Source of the DNA: a virus
Direction: 5' to 3' (one strand)
Length of the DNA: 36,274 nucleotides
IMG/VR virus record: IMGVR_UViG_3300042691_020742
Span: 1 to 36,274 of that record
Of this stretch, positions 6,700 through 27,220 are shown piece after piece; position 1 is the first letter of the stretch; each line of letters opens with the position of its first letter. The position numbers and the translations under genes are program-made. A model generated the notes under the pieces. The model did no database searches, was not told the DNA's origin, and saw nothing but the letters and a program-made list of their open reading frames with translations.

Positions 6700-8733
6700 T
6701 TAATAAAACTTAATCTCACAAGCATCAGTTGAGCAGTATGCTTCTCCTGCTGCCTCAAGATTTTCAACACCATCATAAATAGCAGACCAGTCAATCTTAC
6801 CAATCTTGCCTACATAAGCGTTGTATTCTTCTCTTGTGATTTCTGTATATGGCTGCTGAGGATATGTTTTATTTCCCATCGGAAGGAATGAAACTGCCTT
6901 CAACTGTCCTTCATACATATTCAATGCTGGGGCAACAAACTTCTTCTCTTCCTCTTTGTCAAATGAAAGAGTTACAGAAACACCATTGTCTGACCAGTAC
7001 TTCTGAGCAGTTGCTGCCAAACCAATCTTTTCAAATAGGCTAACCTGCTTCTCAGAACGTTTATGTCCTGATGCAACTGGGAAGTAAACTACCTGTGTGT
7101 TTGCTGATACTAAATCTGGTTCAACTTTATATCCCGCTGCCTTAAATAAATGAAGCATTGGATCTTGATCACCAAATCTAATAGCACGTAGATAGAACTC
7201 TCCACCAGGGCCCCAGTGAACTCCAGGAGTAGCACCAGAAAGTAGTGATACAGATCCTGATGGCTTAACTGTTGTTACACGCACTGATTCACGAACACAT
7301 AGCCACTCTGAATATGAATGATCATATTTACGAATTGTGTTGTATCCTTCATCCATCCATTCACGAATTACTGGAAGACCATGCTCATCAGCAAATGCAG
7401 CAATACCTGTAAGAGATGTACCAATACGGCGATTGCGTTGCATAATACCGTTTGTCTGTTGCCAATGTGTTGGCATAAGAGTTACGGTCTTTCCATAAAG
7501 ATAAGCAAACTTCAATGTCTTTAGGAAGTCCTCTTTGGACTCATGGCGATTTAGGTGTACCTCTACAAGTGTACAAAGTTCGTATGATTCCAGTGGTTGC
7601 TCCGCACAAGGATTGAAGCCCATAATGCGAGTATCCTTATAATCAGGAGCATCTGCAAGACGACCATAATTACGAGCAACATCAAGCCAGATAAAACCTG
7701 GCTCTCCATTGTCGGCAATTAAATCTATATAGTCTTCATACTTAGTTCCAACCTCAGCAGCAATAGAGTTATTACTCATCCATGCCCAACCTGGTTTTTC
7801 TGGATCATATGAATTTCTTTCAGGAAATACCTCTGGATTCTTAAGATTAATAAAACCTTCATCTTCTGGTGTACCAAGTGCAAGGGTAGCAGAACGACGA
7901 ACATTTCCAGAAACAACGCAGGTACCGATAAGATTTACAATATCTACAATAGCACGGCTATCAAGTGCTTCTCCTGCTCTAGAACCGATGACATTACGAA
8001 TGCGTGTATGGAGATCAATAAGTGGTGCTGGACCGCTTGCAACGCCTCCAAAGCCCTTAATAGGTGCTCCTAGAGGTCGGATAAGGTCATAGTTGAATTC
8101 TTGGATAGGCTGGTTTTGACGAAGGAATGAATTAATAAGTAATCTAACAGACTCTACCCATCCTTCACGAGTATCTGGAATTTCGTATGTAGAGGCTGGC
8201 TCTGTAGGTGCATAAATAACCATCTGCTTGTCTTGTCCAAGGGTATCAAAGCCTACCCCAATACCCAACATCAAAGCATCCATTACCCAGGCAAAAAGGG
8301 ATCCTGGATCGTTTCTGTCAATATCACGAGTAGATACCATAGCGCAGTTTTGCAGGGAAGCAGAGTTACGCTTCTCCATAGTCATAGGAGTTCCAAATGC
8401 CCAGAGACCACGACCTGGTGGTGTCCACTTCAATTCAAACATTCTTTGGAATGCTTCTTGTGCAGACTTCTGAGCCTTGTTATCATTCCATGGTAGACGA
8501 TTATCTTTAGCGTGGTTTTTTTGAACTGAGTACATACCCTCAATTACACGACGGCAAACCTCATGCCAGCGTTCTTTAGTTCCATCTTCCTTAACACGAG
8601 AATATGTACGAATAAATGTAATCTCTCCTAATGAATTAGAACCTGCATCTGAGAATCCAAATGGTGCTGGAGTGTTATTATATTTATTTACAAATTCATC
8701 TGAAAGACGAAAAGAGAATACTGTATCTGACAT
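6700..8733 (-). CDS. nrdJ: Adenosylcobalamin-dependent ribonucleoside-triphosphate reductase (class II)
   Basis: Reduces ribonucleoside triphosphates to dNTPs with a B12-generated thiyl radical, supplying precursors for phage replication. The sequence matches the monomeric Lactobacillus-type enzyme (RTPR). It has the redox pair Cys130 (SLQNC) and Cys387, the radical Cys376 and catalytic Glu378 in NPCAEQPL (11 residues before Cys387, as in the family), GTCVVSGNVRRSA near 271, and the C-terminal thioredoxin-relay pair Cys667/Cys672 (CSTDAC). All key residues are present; at 677 aa it is somewhat shorter than the ~740-aa prototype. It has its own promoter and AAAGG ribosome site, and follows a terminator, so it is a separate transcription unit inside the virion-gene block. 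No cobalamin riboswitch was seen. Confidence 0.95.
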   Translation of the reverse strand: MSDTVFSFRLSDEFVNKYNNTPAPFGFSDAGSNSLGEITFIRTYSRVKEDGTKERWHEVCRRVIEGMYSVQKNHAKDNRLPWNDNKAQKSAQEAFQRMFELKWTPPGRGLWAFGTPMTMEKRNSASLQNCAMVSTRDIDRNDPGSLFAWVMDALMLGIGVGFDTLGQDKQMVIYAPTEPASTYEIPDTREGWVESVRLLINSFLRQNQPIQEFNYDLIRPLGAPIKGFGGVASGPAPLIDLHTRIRNVIGSRAGEALDSRAIVDIVNLIGTCVVSGNVRRSATLALGTPEDEGFINLKNPEVFPERNSYDPEKPGWAWMSNNSIAAEVGTKYEDYIDLIADNGEPGFIWLDVARNYGRLADAPDYKDTRIMGFNPCAEQPLESYELCTLVEVHLNRHESKEDFLKTLKFAYLYGKTVTLMPTHWQQTNGIMQRNRRIGTSLTGIAAFADEHGLPVIREWMDEGYNTIRKYDHSYSEWLCVRESVRVTTVKPSGSVSLLSGATPGVHWGPGGEFYLRAIRFGDQDPMLHLFKAAGYKVEPDLVSANTQVVYFPVASGHKRSEKQVSLFEKIGLAATAQKYWSDNGVSVTLSFDKEEEKKFVAPALNMYEGQLKAVSFLPMGNKTYPQQPYTEITREEYNAYVGKIGKIDWSAIYDGVENLEAAGEAYCSTDACEIKFY

Positions 8734-20685: not shown

Positions 20686-21414
20686 ATTAAAGTATTCAAA
20701 AACGAAATATTGTTTTATCCAGTTGATGAACATGCTGCAACTTATTCAGAACCACCTCAACCAGCACTAAACTTTATCCCCGAATGGCATAGGGTTCTTC
20801 CAAAGTATAGCGAAGGTAAAAACTTTGTTAACTATGGGGGATCTGGAAACAATCTAACTGTAAAATCTTGTTTGCCAGTAACAGATGCTTTTACTGCTGG
20901 TTATATAATTTCTTCTTTTTACGATATGCAGGTTACTAGAAATAATGCTGGAAAACCACAAATTAGTTGGGCACTAAACAATAGAAATGTTTCACCACAA
21001 CTAGTTCAAAGCAATCAACCAAGAAAACATAACTTTGTCAATATTGATGGATATGACGATTCAGAGTTTAGTTGGCTACCAGTTTGGTGTATAAAAACTC
21101 CAAAAGGATATAGTTCAATGTTTGTTCATCCCCTTAATAGAATTGATCTTCCGTTTTATACAATTGGAGGAGTAATTGATACTGATGGATGGGGAGATGC
21201 TGGAAAACATCCTTTTATGTTTAAAAAAGGATGGGAAGGAATAATCCCTTCTGGGACACCATTAATACAGGTTATACCTTTTAAAAGAGAAGACTGGAAT
21301 TCTAAAACTGATAACTCAATGACCAAAGAATATTCAAAAAAGATAATTCAAAGAGATAAAAAGTTAAAAGATTATTACAGACTAAATCATTGGAACTCAA
21401 AAAAATATCGTTAA
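20686..21414 (+). CDS. PEW/GVVDTD-family protein (paralogue A), probable ATT start
   Basis: One of five related proteins in the window. Motifs in order: FIPEWHR, VKSCLPVTDAFTAGYIIS, IKTPKGYSSMFVHPLN, GGVIDTDGWGD and a C-terminal SGTPLIQVIPFKREDW. The last two recall the GVIDxDY and GxxIAQL motifs of dUTPase-type proteins; the family's function is unknown. A TTG codon at 20710 lacks a ribosome site, whereas ATT at 20686 has GGGGG 7 nt upstream and gives MKVFKNEILFYP, matching the MKITFRAES start of the paralogue at 26516-27220. I therefore prefer 20686; only the start is uncertain. Confidence 0.8.
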   Translation: MKVFKNEILFYPVDEHAATYSEPPQPALNFIPEWHRVLPKYSEGKNFVNYGGSGNNLTVKSCLPVTDAFTAGYIISSFYDMQVTRNNAGKPQISWALNNRNVSPQLVQSNQPRKHNFVNIDGYDDSEFSWLPVWCIKTPKGYSSMFVHPLNRIDLPFYTIGGVIDTDGWGDAGKHPFMFKKGWEGIIPSGTPLIQVIPFKREDWNSKTDNSMTKEYSKKIIQRDKKLKDYYRLNHWNSKKYR

Positions 21415-21624
21415 TTACTTATGATTCTGTAAGTGTTCAAACATCATATCGTAAAGTTTGTCAACTTTTAGTTCTAACCTATTGACGGAATCTTTTAGCG
21501 ATGATCCAGAATTCGGCTTAAGTTCGCTAAGATAATGCTTTACTAAAAACTTAACTCCACCAACAAGAATACCAAAAATTGTTAAACAAGTTAAAATTAG
21601 TCCTGCCCAGTCTTGTGGAGTCAT
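21415..21624 (-). CDS. Small membrane protein, holin-like
   Basis: A 69-aa protein with one clear membrane helix (residues ~7-27, WAGLILTCLTIFGILVGGVKF), then a soluble amphipathic tail (SVNRLELKVDKLYDMMFEHL) that may form a coiled coil. Size and layout match small actinophage membrane proteins proposed as holins or holin partners. TGATATAAT lies 7 nt before the ATG, with no ribosome site, so it is probably leaderless. It is not adjacent to the lysozyme-like gene, which weakens the lysis assignment. Confidence 0.7.
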   Translation of the reverse strand: MTPQDWAGLILTCLTIFGILVGGVKFLVKHYLSELKPNSGSSLKDSVNRLELKVDKLYDMMFEHLQNHK

Positions 21625-21631
21625 AAGGTTT

Positions 21632-21640
21632 ATTATATCA
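21632..21640 (-). promoter_or_regulatory. Late-type extended -10 (TGATATAAT), leaderless start
   Basis: TGATATAAT on the minus strand, 7 nt before the ATG at 21624; no -35. Confidence 0.55.
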
Positions 21641-21654
21641 CTATTTGATATTAA

Positions 21655-22596
21655 TTACTCACAAATATATGAGAATGACATGTGAAACTTATCATCTGTG
21701 TCTATGTTAATAGGAGTATTGTTATTAAAACTTTGATCTGCAGCACTGCTTCCTATTGCCCAAAGAGTAAAAGTTGAAGACGTTGGAGAAAGGTGTCCTT
21801 TAAGACTATAGTGATCTATTCCTTGGTTTGTAACTTTATGAATTGATCCACCATAAATATCAGTATGATACTTTGATGGCAATGGCAATGTCAAAGAATA
21901 TTGTCCAGTTCCAAAGTTAGTAACAGTTGTAAACAAAACATCAATCTGTACAGTAACTAAGTTTCCAATTTTCACATATGATCCTGTTGCAGGCGTATTA
22001 GTAAAAGTTAATCCTGTACCGCTCCAAACTGGACTGTAAGAATTAATTGTGGTTGTTCCAGTATCTAAGTTTGCATCTGCTCCATCAGCACCGTCGGCAC
22101 CATCTGCGCCTTTAGGAATCCAAACTTCCCATTGACCATTACTTAGGTAATCAACTGGATCACCAAGTTGTCCACTTGCTTTAGCAAGATATAGTTGTCC
22201 ATCTGATCCTCTAACTACTGCAATGTCTGGAAGATATCCATTTGTTGAAACGTAGTTACCTAAATAATAAATTCCAAAATCTGTACCGTTAGTTCCATTT
22301 GTACCATCTGCACCATCAGTTCCGTCTGCTCCTGCATCACCTTTAGAAGATACTAAAAGCCATCCATAACCAGGAGGGTTATAAGAAGAAAACTGACCAT
22401 CAGGGTGATAGTAAGAAGATCCTTGATATTGAACAACTGATCCAGGAGCATAGTCAACTCCATTTACCCATTCGCCTAAAAAGTTCCAAAGAGCATCTGT
22501 ACCGTCAGAACCATCAGCACCTGCTGGACCTGGTTCTCCTTGTGGCCCTGGTGTTCCAGATCCGTCACCTATTCCTGGATGGGTAAAACGTGCCAT
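21655..22596 (-). CDS. Collagen-like fibre protein, second copy
   Basis: A 313-aa protein with three Gly-X-Y tracts (SGTPGPQGEPGPAGADGSDG near 13, DAGADGTDGADGTNGTNGTD near 90 and GADGADGADGADANL near 165) separated by aromatic-rich modules (WVNGVDYAPGSVVQYQGSSYYH; YYLGNYVSTNGYLPDIAVV) that resemble carbohydrate-binding or fibre-interruption domains. The C-terminal ~130 aa are a beta-domain with VTVQIDVLFTTVTNFGTGQY. It is translationally coupled to the upstream 94-aa gene (TAATG). It probably forms a trimeric surface fibre. Confidence 0.8.
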   Translation of the reverse strand: MARFTHPGIGDGSGTPGPQGEPGPAGADGSDGTDALWNFLGEWVNGVDYAPGSVVQYQGSSYYHPDGQFSSYNPPGYGWLLVSSKGDAGADGTDGADGTNGTNGTDFGIYYLGNYVSTNGYLPDIAVVRGSDGQLYLAKASGQLGDPVDYLSNGQWEVWIPKGADGADGADGADANLDTGTTTINSYSPVWSGTGLTFTNTPATGSYVKIGNLVTVQIDVLFTTVTNFGTGQYSLTLPLPSKYHTDIYGGSIHKVTNQGIDHYSLKGHLSPTSSTFTLWAIGSSAADQSFNNNTPINIDTDDKFHMSFSYICE

Positions 22597-22880
22597 TACG
22601 CACCAGATTCAAGACTTGTTTTAATTACTGCTACTTTCATATTTGATCCCGATGCTATTGCGTACAACGCATCTACAGTCGGAAGTTCAAATGAAATTGA
22701 GTGGTTAGGTAAAATTCTAAAACCATAATCGGTGCTTGAAGTCTCGGCGGTTCCACCAATATAGATATATCCCGAATCGTTTACATTTTGAAGCGTAATA
22801 TCCATTCCGCTGTGAAGTCCGATTGGAGTCAAGCGGGTAGCCGAAGTGTTGGATAATGCTGTAAGCACATGCTGGGTCAT
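22596..22880 (-). CDS. Small virion protein upstream of collagen-like fibre
   Basis: A 94-aa beta-rich protein (MTQHVLTALSNTSATRLTP; DITLQNVNDSGYIYIGG; FRILPNHSISFELP; VAVIKTSLESGA). The pattern of short strands resembles phage head or tail decoration proteins encoded next to fibres. TGATATAAT lies exactly 6 nt before the ATG and no ribosome site is visible, so it is probably leaderless. The stop shares one base with the start of the collagen-like gene. Confidence 0.75.
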   Translation of the reverse strand: MTQHVLTALSNTSATRLTPIGLHSGMDITLQNVNDSGYIYIGGTAETSSTDYGFRILPNHSISFELPTVDALYAIASGSNMKVAVIKTSLESGA

Positions 22881-22883
22881 AAT

Positions 22884-22911
22884 TTGATTATATCATTTTA
22901 TATGATAGAAT
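22884..22911 (+). promoter_or_regulatory. Putative promoter (TTGATT-16-TAGAAT) for the 22931 gene
   Basis: TTGATT (22884-22889), a 16-bp spacer and TAGAAT (22906-22911), 20 nt before the TTG start. The element overlaps the divergent late promoter, so the two may interfere. Confidence 0.5.
22887..22895 (-). promoter_or_regulatory. Late-type extended -10 (TGATATAAT), leaderless start
   Basis: TGATATAAT on the minus strand is followed by 6 nt and the ATG at 22880; no -35. Confidence 0.6.
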
Positions 22912-22930
22912 TATTCTTTTAGGGGGAAAC

Positions 22931-23215
22931 TTGATAAAACCAAAAGAAATACTAGAAGTAACTAAACAATTAGGTCAAAGATCATATTGGACTAAAACAA
23001 ACATTATTGAGTTTTGGGCTTTTAGTACAAAATTAAGTATTATTATTCCTGGTCTTTTGTTTGGAGTTCAATTTTGGTGGCTATACATATTTGCGCTGGT
23101 ATCAAGTCTAGCGCTTATATTAACCTCAACCGTAAAAACTCTTCCGACAATTATATACTTTAACGTCGGTTGGACCATCCTTGCTACTGGCGCTCTTTTA
23201 AAGCATTTCTTTTAA
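22931..23215 (+). CDS. Small membrane protein, function unknown
   Basis: A 94-aa protein with a basic/amphipathic N-terminus (~25 aa) and two or three membrane segments (about 32-50, 52-68 and 73-92). It starts with TTG, preceded by AGGGGG at ideal spacing. It stands alone between a divergent virion gene and the nuclease operon. A holin or superinfection-exclusion protein is possible, but nothing in the sequence decides this. Confidence 0.7.
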   Translation: MIKPKEILEVTKQLGQRSYWTKTNIIEFWAFSTKLSIIIPGLLFGVQFWWLYIFALVSSLALILTSTVKTLPTIIYFNVGWTILATGALLKHFF

Positions 23216-23304
23216 GTCCGCCGAAATAGAGATATCAAACCACCTATGTACAAACCTTGCATTATAAATGCCCTATGTACACGTATTGGTAACATTTCGT
23301 TATA

Positions 23305-23333
23305 TTGACAGATAGATCCTTTTACGATACAAT
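23305..23333 (+). promoter_or_regulatory. Consensus promoter driving a leaderless nuclease mRNA
   Basis: TTGACA (23305-23310), a 17-bp spacer and TACAAT (23328-23333). The ATG begins 7 nt after the -10, at the predicted first transcribed base. This is the closest match to the sigma-70 consensus in the window. Confidence 0.8.
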
Positions 23334-23339
23334 GGGTAG

Positions 23340-23936
23340 ATGGTAGATAGCATCAAAAATATTTTAAAAGTACACCTTCTCAACAAACTAAAATTTCACC
23401 ACACTATATACAGGCTTCCTGCAATAAGTGAATATCTAGAAGAACTTATTTCCGAAACGCTAAATGAAAACGGCATGCCAAATGACTGGAAGCCTCAAAG
23501 AACAAACTCACCGTCTAAAGACTTTACCCTAGATAGCGGAGAGAGCGTATCTATCAAGTCTGGTTTGTATAACATTAAGAACGGCACCCTAAAATTTTCG
23601 GGAAGTAGGTTAGGAAAGCATACTGGCATAGACGAAATGCTAAAGTCCATAAAAGACAACCATGCAGACTACTATGTTTGCGTAGCCAAAAACGACCAGG
23701 ATTGGTCTCCTACGCCAAATAGGGACGAACCTAAGACCTACTATCTCTTTGTCTTTGAAAGTGGCTTATTGGACTATTCTGGCGGTATTTGGAGTAAGGT
23801 AGAAAACGACCTAGGGTATAAATACGTACTAGATGTACCAGGCATGCATGCTAAAATAGTATCTAGTATGAGTCATCAGTTATGGACTACTGTGGACTTA
23901 AGCATTATAGGCGATCCAGAGAAGTTGGTTGTATGA
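23340..23936 (+). CDS. Restriction-endonuclease-like protein (PD-(D/E)XK type)
   Basis: A 198-aa protein resembling small type II restriction nucleases. Asp61 precedes GESVSIKSG (68-75, with Lys73), followed by LKFSGSRLGKHTGIDEMLKSI, a pattern seen where nucleases bind DNA and assemble the active site. The canonical acidic residue before x-Lys is Ser71, with Glu68 close by, so catalytic assignment is tentative. No methyltransferase is encoded nearby, unlike a classical restriction system; degradation of host DNA, exclusion of rival phages or homing are possible. It begins a four- to five-gene operon (23340-25776) and is predicted to be leaderless. Its stop overlaps the next start. Confidence 0.65.
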   Translation: MVDSIKNILKVHLLNKLKFHHTIYRLPAISEYLEELISETLNENGMPNDWKPQRTNSPSKDFTLDSGESVSIKSGLYNIKNGTLKFSGSRLGKHTGIDEMLKSIKDNHADYYVCVAKNDQDWSPTPNRDEPKTYYLFVFESGLLDYSGGIWSKVENDLGYKYVLDVPGMHAKIVSSMSHQLWTTVDLSIIGDPEKLVV

Positions 23937-24136
23937 GCGATGATGTTAATATAGGGGATTGGCTTAAGCCTTCTTCGCCTAGAGCCAGCGATGCTGTCAT
24001 CAATACCCGCCTAGAAATCTGTTCTGGATGTGAGTTCTTTAGTCCTAGAATGTCTAGATGTAAGAAATGTAAATGCTTTATGAAACTTAAAACCGAATTA
24101 CTTCATGCTCGTTGCCCTATTGGAAAGTGGTCATAA
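23933..24136 (+). CDS. Small zinc-ribbon protein, copy 2
   Basis: A 67-aa protein with CSGCEFF, CKKCKCFMKLKTELL and CPIGKWS: a four-cysteine zinc ribbon closely related to 15492-15725. The start at 23933 overlaps the nuclease stop (ATGA) and the stop overlaps the next start (TAATG), so it is tightly coupled. A longer frame begins at 23882 but would overlap the nuclease by 55 nt. Function unknown; its copy in the late block also sits in a small-gene operon. Confidence 0.78.
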   Translation: MSDDVNIGDWLKPSSPRASDAVINTRLEICSGCEFFSPRMSRCKKCKCFMKLKTELLHARCPIGKWS

Positions 24137-24831
24137 TGAACAGACTTGGATTCATTAATCTTTATGATATTGATGAAAGGTACTATCCCGTTCCTAGTAG
24201 CGCTGTCCTGCCAGAATGGTACAAGAAAACTCATTCATATGTTCAGGACAAAAGGCATCCTGATGGAATGACCATTAAAAGATGTATTCCAATTTTTGAT
24301 TCTATTACCGCTGGATATACGATCCTTTTGCATGCAGATATATTCGTTGGATTTGAATATCAAAACAATCAAAAAATACAAGTTACTCAGTGGAGCAATC
24401 TTATAGAGTTTCCATTTATACAATCGCATGCATTTGATCAGTTTTCTCAATATCCAGAAATGGAAAAAGGAGTTGCAGCGAAAAAGTTTGTTAATCCCTT
24501 TGCTGTAGTTACGCCCAAGGGATATTCTTGTTTATTCACACAGCCAATGCATCAGGATAAAAGCCCGATAAAGATATTTGAAGGAGTTGTAGATACCGAC
24601 AGACAGCACATCGTCAATATCCCTTTTGTGTATATAGATCCAGACTTTGAAGGAGTCATACCTGCTGGCACACCCATAGCACAGATTATTCCGTTTAAAA
24701 GAGAGTCTTGGAAATTTGAAATTGACAACAAAAAAGATATAGAGTCTTATAAGAAACAGAAGAGAAGTCTAGGATCAAATATCTTTGCTCAGTATAAAGA
24801 TTTCTTTTGGACAAGAAAAGAATATAAATGA
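24136..24831 (+). CDS. PEW/GVVDTD-family protein (paralogue B)
   Basis: A 231-aa protein with LPEWYKKTH, IKRCIPIFDSITAGYTILL, VTPKGYSCLFTQPMHQ, EGVVDTDRQ and AGTPIAQIIPFKRESW: all the signature motifs of the five-member set, in the same order. The motif GTPIAQIIP is especially close to the dUTPase-type GxxIAQL end. The start at 24136 overlaps the zinc-ribbon stop; the stop overlaps the next gene by 4 nt. Its place in the nuclease operon suggests a shared, early or accessory role. No enzyme activity is established. Confidence 0.8.
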   Translation: MNRLGFINLYDIDERYYPVPSSAVLPEWYKKTHSYVQDKRHPDGMTIKRCIPIFDSITAGYTILLHADIFVGFEYQNNQKIQVTQWSNLIEFPFIQSHAFDQFSQYPEMEKGVAAKKFVNPFAVVTPKGYSCLFTQPMHQDKSPIKIFEGVVDTDRQHIVNIPFVYIDPDFEGVIPAGTPIAQIIPFKRESWKFEIDNKKDIESYKKQKRSLGSNIFAQYKDFFWTRKEYK

Positions 24832-25022
24832 GAGACTGGCAAAATAAGGATTGGCTTGTTAACCAGTATATTACGATGGGTCGTAGTGTTTCCTGGATAG
24901 CAGATTTAGTTAAGGTTCATCCTGATCTTATTAGGTTCTATCTTGATCAGTTTGAGATTTATCGTCCCCTGCCAAAATGCAAGCATGGTATGATTATTTG
25001 TGAGAGATGTAATAAGGAGTAA
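24828..25022 (+). CDS. Small helix-turn-helix-like protein with a CxxC end
   Basis: A 64-aa protein. Residues ~10-45 (WLVNQYITMGRSVSWIADLV, then KVHPDLIRFYLDQF) fit a helix-turn-helix of the kind used for DNA recognition in phage regulators and homing-associated proteins. The end, CKHGMIICERC, has paired cysteines and a histidine that could bind zinc. It overlaps the previous stop (ATGA) and has no spacing for its own promoter. A DNA-binding partner of the nuclease operon is possible. Confidence 0.65.
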   Translation: MRDWQNKDWLVNQYITMGRSVSWIADLVKVHPDLIRFYLDQFEIYRPLPKCKHGMIICERCNKE

Positions 25023-25023
25023 A

Positions 25024-25776
25024 GTGAAAAAACAACCATTAAAAGTATATTGGTCTCCAGTTTTTTATAGAGAGCGAGAAGACTTTACATTTTTATTTAA
25101 TAAGCCCGAAACAGTTTTTAATAGTTTATTAAAGTTAAAAAATAAAAGCAATCTAGACGAAACAATATTTGCATGTCCTGCATTTGCTAATGTATATAAA
25201 AAAGTTTTAACTTTTGCTACTCCAATTTCCTCAGAATATGAATATGATTTTTCTCAAGATAGAAAACACATTGTTGCAAAAGGAGAAACTTCTATTCCAA
25301 TACTTTCAACAAGACCTTTTATATTTAATTATGGTCCAAATTTTATTATGCCACTTAATACAATATTTTTTGCAGAAGAACCACTTAACGCAAGATTAAC
25401 TCCCCCGTACCTACATAATTCAGAATTTTTAAAGTATGCAACTATTATGTCTGGAGAGTTTGATATAGGCCAGTGGTTTAGACCAATTAGTTTTGAGTTA
25501 CAGATGTGGAAAGATAAAGGAACGTTAAAGTTTAATGAAAATGATGCATTGATGTATCTTGAATTTTTTACAGATAGAACCATAGAGTTAGTAAGATTTG
25601 ATATGTCAAAACAACTTTTAAACCTAATGGAGAGTGTCACCACCTCTCGTCAAGTATTTGGAAGATCATCACTTTCTAAGAAATACGAAAGGTTCAAGAA
25701 TGTTGGATTGCGTGAAAAAGTTTTAACAGAAATAAAGAAAAATCTTATTGACGAAGAACCGATGATTATTCGTTAA
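25024..25776 (+). CDS. PEW/GVVDTD-family relative, divergent (paralogue C)
   Basis: A 250-aa protein with a GTG start. Its outline follows the other family members (FACPAFANVYKKVLTF; PLNTIFFAEEPLNARLTPPY; SGEFDIGQWFRPISFELQMW; ALMYLEFFTDRTIELVRF), but the PEW, TPKGYS and GTP motifs are absent or changed, so membership is less certain. I chose GTG at 25024 because AAGGAG lies 5 nt upstream; the ATG at 25000 is inside the preceding gene. Its stop codon overlaps that of the convergent gene ending at 25773. Confidence 0.6.
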   Translation: MKKQPLKVYWSPVFYREREDFTFLFNKPETVFNSLLKLKNKSNLDETIFACPAFANVYKKVLTFATPISSEYEYDFSQDRKHIVAKGETSIPILSTRPFIFNYGPNFIMPLNTIFFAEEPLNARLTPPYLHNSEFLKYATIMSGEFDIGQWFRPISFELQMWKDKGTLKFNENDALMYLEFFTDRTIELVRFDMSKQLLNLMESVTTSRQVFGRSSLSKKYERFKNVGLREKVLTEIKKNLIDEEPMIIR

Positions 25777-26519
25777 GGTTTTTGGTGATCTGGAAATTTG
25801 TTTTCGTAAATGTCTGTTCCTTTAAAATAAAATCTTCCAACTTGATTTGGTAATTCTTCTTCTACTGTTGCTCTGTGTATATTAGCATCATTGGTTGCAT
25901 TTATTTCTTCAGTAATTGTTTCTTGGTCAAACACTTCTTCTGCACTCTTTAGTTCAAAACTATCTGCAAAGTATCTTGGAATAGGTATAAAGGCTGCAAG
26001 CGGAGTCCCCTTGGTTATTTGAACACGTATCCCAGGCATTTGTACTTTTAGGTTAAATGTAAAATCTCTTCTTAGATTGTCGCACTCAACAACTCCAGTC
26101 ATTACCGTTACATTAGGAATAATATGGTTCGGCGGATTGATTGTCATTAGGTTAACTCCAGGAGGAGTTCTTAGCGAAAATGGCAAATTGATTGTTATTA
26201 TTCCCTGACCAAAATGTGAATACACTGATGGGTGAAGTTGTTTTTCTTTAAACTCTTCTCCAACCATAACCTTTAAAGATTCTTTGTTGTGTCCACCATC
26301 CCACCAAAATTCAAAATCGTGCTCTGAAACCACAGAAAACCCATACTGATTGCCTATTGTAAGTGGCAAACATCTGTAGAAGTGTGGAGTAAACCATTCT
26401 CTTTTCTTTGTATTCTTTTGAACAATCTGATGAATCCTTTCATCGCTTACAGGCTTAGGTTCTATGTGAGGAAAATATACAATTGTTTTGTCTGGTACAT
26501 CATTGCCTTGATTGATCAC
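25773..26519 (-). CDS. DUF6065-like protein (paralogue D)
   Basis: A 248-aa protein: FYRCLPLTIGNQYGFSV, FWWDGGHN, VYSHFGQGIITI, LRTPPGVNLMTINPPN, TGVVECD and KGTPLAAFIPIPRY. The order and residues match what I recall of DUF6065, a family of unknown function. The TGVVECD and GTPLAAFIP parts correspond to GVVDTD and GTPxxQxIPFKR in the neighbouring paralogues, so all five may be one superfamily. It is coupled to the gene ending at 26516 (overlap of 4 nt). The C-terminal 60 residues are acidic and probably flexible. Confidence 0.75.
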   Translation of the reverse strand: MINQGNDVPDKTIVYFPHIEPKPVSDERIHQIVQKNTKKREWFTPHFYRCLPLTIGNQYGFSVVSEHDFEFWWDGGHNKESLKVMVGEEFKEKQLHPSVYSHFGQGIITINLPFSLRTPPGVNLMTINPPNHIIPNVTVMTGVVECDNLRRDFTFNLKVQMPGIRVQITKGTPLAAFIPIPRYFADSFELKSAEEVFDQETITEEINATNDANIHRATVEEELPNQVGRFYFKGTDIYENKFPDHQKP

Positions 26520-27220
26520 TTAAAACTCTTCTTTTGCCAAAAGTTTTTTATGTAGTTGTTTACTAATGTATTTTTTAAGTCACGATTCCAACTTATCACA
26601 GATTCATCATGCTCCATATAATTATATTCTGATTCCCAGTTATCTCTCTTAAATGGTATCAGTTGCATCATTGGTGTACCACGCTCAACAACTCCGTTAA
26701 AGCCTTTTTTAACAAAACAAGGTGGAGTTAAAGAGATAGGATAAGTGTCATAATCAACAATGGCTGGCATAACTCTAAATGGATTATTAGGATATCCTAT
26801 TGGAGGTATCACAAGCATAGAGTATCCCTTTGGTAATTTTGTTAGCCAATAGTTCATGTATTTTGCTTGATGCTTATATCCATCTGGAATTGCTATGTCA
26901 GATGGGTTGTGTGTTGCAAAAACGTCTTTTTGTACTCTCCAACTTAGATTCAAACGTTCTTCGTCTTGTTCAACTAAAACATCAGACCACAGTGGAATAA
27001 TATATCCAGCAGTTAGCAAGTCAAGCATTGGTGTGCACTTTTTCATCATAGCCGTTGTTTCACGACCTCTGATTCTCATCTTCTTGCCATCTGGATCACC
27101 TGGTGATGGTTCATAAGGCTTTGCTTTTCTCCACCACTCAGGAAGATATTGAGAAGTAGGAACAGGTCTAGGACATACCTCATAGTCAATCTTAGATTCT
27201 GCTCTAAACGTTATTTTCAT
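26516..27220 (-). CDS. PEW/GVVDTD-family protein (paralogue E)
   Basis: A 234-aa protein with YLPEWWRKA, MKKCTPMLDLLTAGYIIPLW, LTKLPKGYSMLVIPPI, PAIVDYDTYP and RGTPMMQLIPFKRDNW. It resembles conserved proteins I have seen in marine phages, annotated only as hypothetical. AATCGGGGG precedes the ATG. It forms a three-gene operon with the 41-aa gene 15 nt upstream and the DUF6065-like gene downstream. The PLW and PKGYS regions are hydrophobic strands, consistent with a compact beta-fold. Confidence 0.8.
   Translation of the reverse strand: MKITFRAESKIDYEVCPRPVPTSQYLPEWWRKAKPYEPSPGDPDGKKMRIRGRETTAMMKKCTPMLDLLTAGYIIPLWSDVLVEQDEERLNLSWRVQKDVFATHNPSDIAIPDGYKHQAKYMNYWLTKLPKGYSMLVIPPIGYPNNPFRVMPAIVDYDTYPISLTPPCFVKKGFNGVVERGTPMMQLIPFKRDNWESEYNYMEHDESVISWNRDLKNTLVNNYIKNFWQKKSFK

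Follow-up and report, generated by a model that had tools for sequence, protein, structure and literature searches.

Why should one phage carry five versions of the same protein? The question is raised by a freshwater phage, represented by a 36,274-base virus record of IMG/VR (IMGVR_UViG_3300042691_020742, analysed at its full length and called the window below). An earlier note, made from the sequence alone, had described five related proteins with a dUTPase-like signature between positions 20686 and 27220 (Table 1). Our analysis indicates that the five genes encode putative dUTPase-fold (beta-clip) proteins of one superfamily, here named phage dUTPase-related proteins, in which most of the catalytic residues of dUTPase are missing; the family is probably put to a use other than that of dUTPase. 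We suggest, with moderate confidence, that a remodelled pocket binds a ligand, or a partner under the control of a ligand, and that dUTP is not hydrolysed.

The five proteins fall into entries that have neither fold nor function in the libraries searched: the 25773 protein (each protein is named here by the first coordinate of its gene) in Pfam DUF6065 (PF19541), four in phrog_7084, and the 25024 protein in phrog_17480. A predicted fold and the link between the entries are added here, so that three families of unknown function, two of them from phages and one from Pfam, now have a fold assignment. In the papers found by a literature search, none of the names DUF6065, PF19541, phrog_7084, or phrog_17480 occurs.

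Relationships among the five proteins

An open reading frame (ORF) is present at all five loci, and the proteins are single-domain, with 231-250 residues. The 20686, 24136, and 26516 proteins have about 30% pairwise identity (BLASTP, E 3e-27 to 4e-33); the 25773 protein matches these three at E values of 6e-6 to 0.01 (6e-6 with the 24136 protein and 8e-5 with the 20686 protein). A single profile, phrog_7084, matches all four (E 2e-51 to 2.6e-12), in the 25773 protein over residues 44-194 only. At the level of sequence, these four proteins are unambiguous homologues.

The 25773 protein is a full member of DUF6065 (133.3 bits, cut-off 26.6) and the only one of the five: the 24136 protein scores 17.3 bits, below the cut-off, and no DUF6065 match is listed in the Pfam search for the 20686, 25024, and 26516 proteins. 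Members of the phrog_7084 type, including the four window proteins, were collected in an alignment of 120 sequences (A3), and a model was also built from 104 foreign sequences, leaving out the window, sibling phages, and rows of the DUF6065 branch. Applied to the window, the latter model finds exactly four members (E 6e-78, 2e-71, 2e-68, and 4e-16, the last being the 25773 protein); the best unrelated ORF has an E value of 1.1, which is noise, so the similarity of the 25773 protein to the others lies far beyond chance.

The 25024 protein is a remote homologue of the other four, tied to them by a profile-profile match and a common predicted fold. It is assigned to phrog_17480 without a match to phrog_7084, and its pairwise BLASTP comparisons with the other four are not significant (best E 0.5). 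A 59-sequence alignment of its branch (A6) is colinear with A3 over 133 columns (hhalign, E 1.7e-5, probability 79%), compared with E values of 0.24 and 0.44 for unrelated control profiles in the same test. The invariant Cys50 of A3 coincides in position with the invariant Cys51 of A6, in each case just before a predicted helix (51-58 or 52-58) that is followed by a strand at 61. A chance resemblance is ruled out by the profile comparison with its controls and by the shared predicted fold, although the A6 profile gives nothing when compared directly with dUTPases (E 0.57).

Profile similarity was therefore found among all five proteins, and the relationship claimed in the earlier note stands, through phrog_7084 for four of them (E <= 3e-12) and through the profile-profile match only for the 25024 protein. 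The ordered set of motifs that was said to be common to all five survives in part: it is literal in the 20686, 24136, and 26516 proteins only, blurred in the 25773 protein (RCLPL, TPPGVN, GVVECD, and KGTPLAAFIPIPR), and essentially absent from the 25024 protein, which has ACPAF and GEFDIGQWFRP in its place.

A further family of phage proteins (227 residues; L081:4274-4951), encoded adjacent to A3 genes, contains a stretch, CFPQTFKFYVPW, that recalls the family. It has no Pfam match and is possibly another remote branch.

Predicted fold and conserved residues

The fold was modelled with AlphaFold2 for the 24136 and 25024 proteins. The model of the 24136 protein, made with 120 aligned sequences, has a predicted local distance difference test score (pLDDT) of 94.4 and a predicted template modelling score (pTM) of 0.88. 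Its first matches in a Foldseek search of the PDB are dUTPases and one dCTP deaminase (E 4e-5 to 1e-3); after structural re-alignment, all 50 PDB entries among the matches listed are dUTPases, with a best Z score of 11.0, and the Mycobacterium tuberculosis dUTPase aligns at Z 10.8 with a root-mean-square deviation (rmsd) of 2.6 over 112 residues (VIA-align). For the 25024 protein (pLDDT 94.2, pTM 0.90), all 50 PDB entries among the matches listed are again dUTPases (Z 6.6 to 7.4; top alignment Z 7.4, rmsd 3.2 over 109 residues). The two models have neighbours in common among viral structures (for example A0A516LX19, A0A6J7WYP2, and A0A6J5LC89); Z scores of this size would be weak alone, but the predicted fold of the 25024 protein is convincing because the list is uniformly one of dUTPases and because of these common neighbours. 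A trimeric-dUTPase (beta-clip) monomer fold, as the earlier note had proposed, is well supported by these confident models, and neither predicted fold is unrelated to the beta-clip.

Sequence matches point the same way. Among PDB sequences the A3 profile matches dUTPases best, and the alignment falls exactly on GVIDSD and GDRIAQ (E 0.049); hhalign comparison with nine canonical dUTPases, real enzymes from genomes that also encode an A3-family member, aligns the same motif-3 and motif-4 stretches (E 0.0029). Weak as they are, these matches corroborate the structural result. The canonical dUTPase profile (PF00692) matches none of the five proteins and nothing else in the window.

With the canonical trimeric dUTPases (PF00692), the family has in common the predicted fold, the order of the motif-3 and motif-4 stretches, and, in most members, the motif-3 Asp and motif-4 Gln. 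The family differs in being about 100 residues longer, with an extra N-terminal PEW region, the invariant Cys, and C-terminal helices, and above all in its missing motifs. The Arg-Ser of motif 2, PRS(G/S), is found in none of the 120 A3 sequences and in all nine canonical controls; the same holds for the glycine-rich arm of motif 5 (RGxGGFGSTG). The position equivalent to the motif-1 Asp (xDLxA; A3 column 62) is mostly occupied by Ile, Val, Thr, Leu, or Met. With three of five motifs gone, the five proteins are, as far as their sequences tell, not canonical dUTPases, and the nucleotide binding or sensing that the earlier note had tentatively suggested is not shown.

What has been kept is as distinctive as what has been lost. 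The motif-3 Asp is Asp in 81% and Glu in 16% of A3 sequences, 83 of the 120 have an aromatic residue within two positions of the second Asp of motif 3, and the motif-4 Gln is present in 83%; in the 25024 branch (A6), Asp or Asn occupies the motif-3 position and the motif-4 Gln has not been retained. Trp28, Cys50, and Gly60 occur in every A3 sequence, Asp155, Thr179, and Arg189 in more than 90%, and Lys48 and Asp55 in more than 80%; the Cys is also found at the equivalent place in all 59 A6 sequences. Of the 25 positions with the highest conservation, 19 are in the four motif-equivalent stretches (p 2e-9, an optimistic value, since the motif windows were picked after the alignment was seen). 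The natural reading of these residues, which is not proof, is a site in the place of the old nucleotide pocket with a new job. They form a small set whose role can be tested directly.

Table 1. Positions, strands, and supporting evidence for the dUTPase-fold genes of the window, selected motifs, and adjacent genes
Feature	Position	Strand	Evidence
dUTPase-fold paralogue 1 (phrog_7084), probable ATT start	20686..21414	+	phrog_7084 E 1.3e-41; orthologues in L001-L003; dN/dS 0.066 to L001
dUTPase-fold paralogue 2 (phrog_7084), structure modelled	24136..24831	+	phrog_7084 E 2e-51; AlphaFold2 pLDDT 94.4; PDB dUTPases Z up to 11.0
Divergent dUTPase-fold paralogue 3 (phrog_17480 branch), structure modelled	25024..25776	+	hhalign E 1.7e-5; AlphaFold2 pLDDT 94.2; Z 7.4
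dUTPase-family paralogue 4, Pfam DUF6065	25773..26519	-	PF19541 E 1.3e-38; phrog_7084 E 2.6e-12; A3 model without DUF6065 branch E 3.9e-16
dUTPase-family paralogue 5 (phrog_7084)	26516..27220	-	phrog_7084 E 4.1e-44; dN/dS 0.029 to L001
Codon of invariant Cys50, paralogue 2 (motif-1 region KxCxPxxD)	24283..24285	+	Cys in 120/120 A3 and 59/59 A6 sequences at equivalent place
Motif-3 equivalent GVVDTD, paralogue 2 (dUTPase GxIDxDYRG)	24583..24600	+	hmmsearch and hhalign alignment to dUTPase motif 3
Motif-4 equivalent GTPIAQIIPFKR, paralogue 2 (dUTPase GDRIAQ)	24667..24702	+	alignment to dUTPase motif 4
DUF6171 protein, small and rich in Cys (zinc-ribbon-like); possible partner, gene overlapping the start of paralogue 2	23897..24136	+	PF19668 27.2 bits (cut-off 27)
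Small helix-turn-helix (HTH) protein between paralogues 2 and 3, overlaps stop of paralogue 2; membership of the set uncertain	24828..25022	+	weak matches: HTH_28 E 0.005, phrog_8446 E 1.4e-4

Distribution, history and possible roles

Hundreds of viral contigs encode relatives of these proteins, as do dozens of HF2-like haloviruses and many alphaproteobacterial genomes. At least 593 viral loci hold A3-type members and at least 202 hold members of the 25024 branch; there are 120 cellular loci, mostly from Rhizobiales among the matches listed, and a phylum-wide draw found the family in 20 of 299 genomes. Among 16 long contigs chosen solely by a window-like ribonucleotide reductase (RNR), 14 encode one to five A3 copies, and a sibling record (G312) has eight members (six A3 and two A6). 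The HF2-like haloviruses have a single copy, which comes last in the tail-fibre module and is not far from RNR or thymidylate synthase.

In a quick tree with Shimodaira-Hasegawa-like approximate likelihood ratio test (SH-aLRT) support, the four A3 copies of the window are placed in four distinct clades, and in every one of these other phages have orthologues; recent tandem duplication was rejected on the basis of the four clades. Compared with the sibling phage L001, all five genes have ratios of nonsynonymous to synonymous substitution (dN/dS) of 0.03-0.13, the four A3 copies spanning 0.03-0.12. The paralogues are old lineages kept side by side under strong purifying selection, in agreement with the diversified set proposed by the earlier note.

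These observations can be accommodated by a remodelled site in the position of the old nucleotide pocket. The motif-1 Asp, the motif-2 Arg-Ser, and motif 5 are missing, whereas the motif-3 Asp and motif-4 Gln are mostly retained together with a new invariant Cys and Trp. Instead of hydrolysing dUTP, the site would now bind either another ligand, which might be a nucleotide or a metabolite linked to one, or a ligand-controlled partner. A trimer like that of dUTPases is assumed on the strength of the fold. The five old lineages would each have a ligand or target of their own, which could be why a phage keeps several copies at once.

Several points weigh against this interpretation. The sequence link to dUTPases is weak when taken alone, and it depends on motifs 3 and 4; the correspondence of motifs 1 and 2 is deduced from order and strand placement. 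The lining of the pocket, the ligand, the trimer, and separate targets for the paralogues are likewise inferred. The cellular neighbourhoods of the family are varied and name no function.

Reuse of a degenerate dUTPase by viruses is already known in eukaryotic viruses. Herpesviruses encode 17 dUTPase-related proteins (DURPs), likely derived from gene duplication, and one of these, UL82 of human cytomegalovirus, has lost dUTPase function (PMC11599850). The phage family resembles them as a viral family of predicted dUTPase fold that has probably lost dUTPase function and was multiplied by gene duplication, as the DURPs were (PMC11599850). DURPs consist of three dUTPase-like domains; the phage proteins have a single one, which carries a conserved set of residues of its own, and they are found in haloviruses and bacteria as well as in phages. 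What links them to the DURPs is their history and use, and they do not belong to that group. More tentatively, the family may be regarded as the prokaryotic-virus counterpart of the DURPs, a very large dUTPase-fold superfamily with up to eight members per phage genome and a remodelled Cys site that would have acquired a new ligand-gated or catalytic function. A family of this size in prokaryotic viruses, with its own conserved residues, is new; its existence suggests that dUTPase has served phages, as it has herpesviruses, as a starting point for new proteins.

The main rival to the remodelled binding pocket is an enzyme that uses the dUTPase scaffold for a new reaction, in which the invariant Cys50, with Asp55, Asp153/155, Gln183, and Arg189, acts on a nucleotide or other small metabolite. 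This is possible but rather unlikely. In its favour, none of the 179 sequences of the two branches departs from the Cys, which is also invariant in the haloarchaeal viruses, and it is accompanied by the near-invariant polar residues Lys48, Asp55, Asp155, Thr179, Gln183, and Arg189; an invariant Cys can, however, be structural, and the 25024 branch has relaxed the motif-3 Asp and given up the motif-4 Gln. Halogenases, oxygenases, and methyltransferases share genomic islands with some of the viral copies, and a Trp halogenase is often beside members in loci selected through A3 or A4. This link is unspecific: a member is present in 16 of 80 loci chosen by halogenase and in 12 of 80 control loci chosen by RNR, and a halogenase partnership was rejected.

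Less probable again is a module that only binds proteins, with no ligand, serving host takeover, counter-defence, or antirepression, its paralogues being aimed at different host proteins. There are precedents, since staphylococcal phage dUTPases bind Stl, the repressor of Staphylococcus aureus pathogenicity islands (SaPI), and thereby put a phage-encoded dUTPase fold to regulatory use (PMC5593958). These enzymes differ from the present family in being enzymatically active and in needing motifs IV, V, and VI for regulation; the family has no motif V. The DURPs (PMC11599850) and a dUTPase-related gene of bovine immunodeficiency virus, which replication requires although no activity can be detected (PMC4261571), also work in the absence of dUTPase function, and the several copies per phage have tail-fibre and other variable genes close by. 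Proteins aimed at a host are usually variable where they bind, whereas conservation here is concentrated at dUTPase-motif positions and is polar. The family has no PADLOC match, for which reason a defence function was dropped, and it is also kept in bacterial chromosomes beside a sigma/anti-sigma factor pair and a subtilase.

It is very improbable that the proteins are still active dUTPases, or dNTP pyrophosphatases, with altered motifs, supplying the phage with its own dUTPase. The predicted fold and the mostly retained motif-3 Asp and motif-4 Gln would fit such an enzyme, as would the position of the halovirus genes next to or near thymidylate synthase or RNR and the absence of a canonical dUTPase from the window and from 30 of 32 related records, many of which are fragments. 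The complete absence of the motif-2 Arg-Ser and motif 5 from A3 and the replaced motif-1 Asp argue otherwise, and it is difficult to see why a phage would need a single housekeeping enzyme in five to eight copies. Moreover, HF2 and Hardygib1 encode a PF00692 match besides their family member, as do 11 of the 12 cellular carriers examined, so the family does not replace dUTPase.

A minor virion or tail-fibre-associated protein is the least credible proposal, for although the genes often have tail-fibre genes as direct neighbours, both in these phages and in haloviruses, they lie on the strand opposite to the tail genes at 20686 and in HF2 and HSTV-2, match no tail domain, and include a stable chromosomal gene at a non-phage locus in Rhizobiales; no proteomics paper placing the family in halovirus virions was found.

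Neighbouring genes

In phages, members of the family adjoin each other and tail-fibre genes, and Trp halogenase, 2-oxoglutarate (2OG) oxygenase, and methyltransferase genes are found near some of them. The best lead to a partner is the small DUF6171 protein whose gene overlaps the start of paralogue 2: it has seven loci in a sample that was not chosen by the family, and in four of them it directly adjoins a member (Fisher p 0.018).

The earlier note had also raised a possible link to a nuclease operon, and this is not supported; the product of the 23340 gene matches neither a nuclease family nor a solved structure, and only two of the five paralogue genes lie downstream of it on the same strand.

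The 20686 frame opens at ATT, a non-standard start, which is preceded by GGGGG as an apparent ribosome-binding stretch. Two sibling phages (L001 and L002) have kept this ATT behind GGGGG, and in them the downstream TTG of the window is CTT; in a third (L003), an ATG lies near the homologous start. This may be a natural AUU-initiated phage gene.

In Rhizobiales a locus recurs in which the dUTPase-fold gene is accompanied by an S8 subtilase, an extracytoplasmic function (ECF) sigma factor, and, judging by a weak zf-HC2 match, an anti-sigma factor; the set is conserved and chromosomal (L097, L146, L152, L169, and others). The same loci contain a secreted protein with Ser/Asn repeats on the strand opposite to a called ORF. 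The neighbours of the family gene vary in other alphaproteobacteria.

Two further genes of the window were noticed in passing. A small membrane protein is encoded at 22931-23215; in several phages its homologues directly follow a Trp halogenase gene, and the window has no halogenase, as if lost. At least 80 other viral contigs encode an RNR with 93% or higher identity to that of the window (6700-8733), which seems unusually conserved, compared with 78-92% identity for the dUTPase-fold genes in the nearest siblings.

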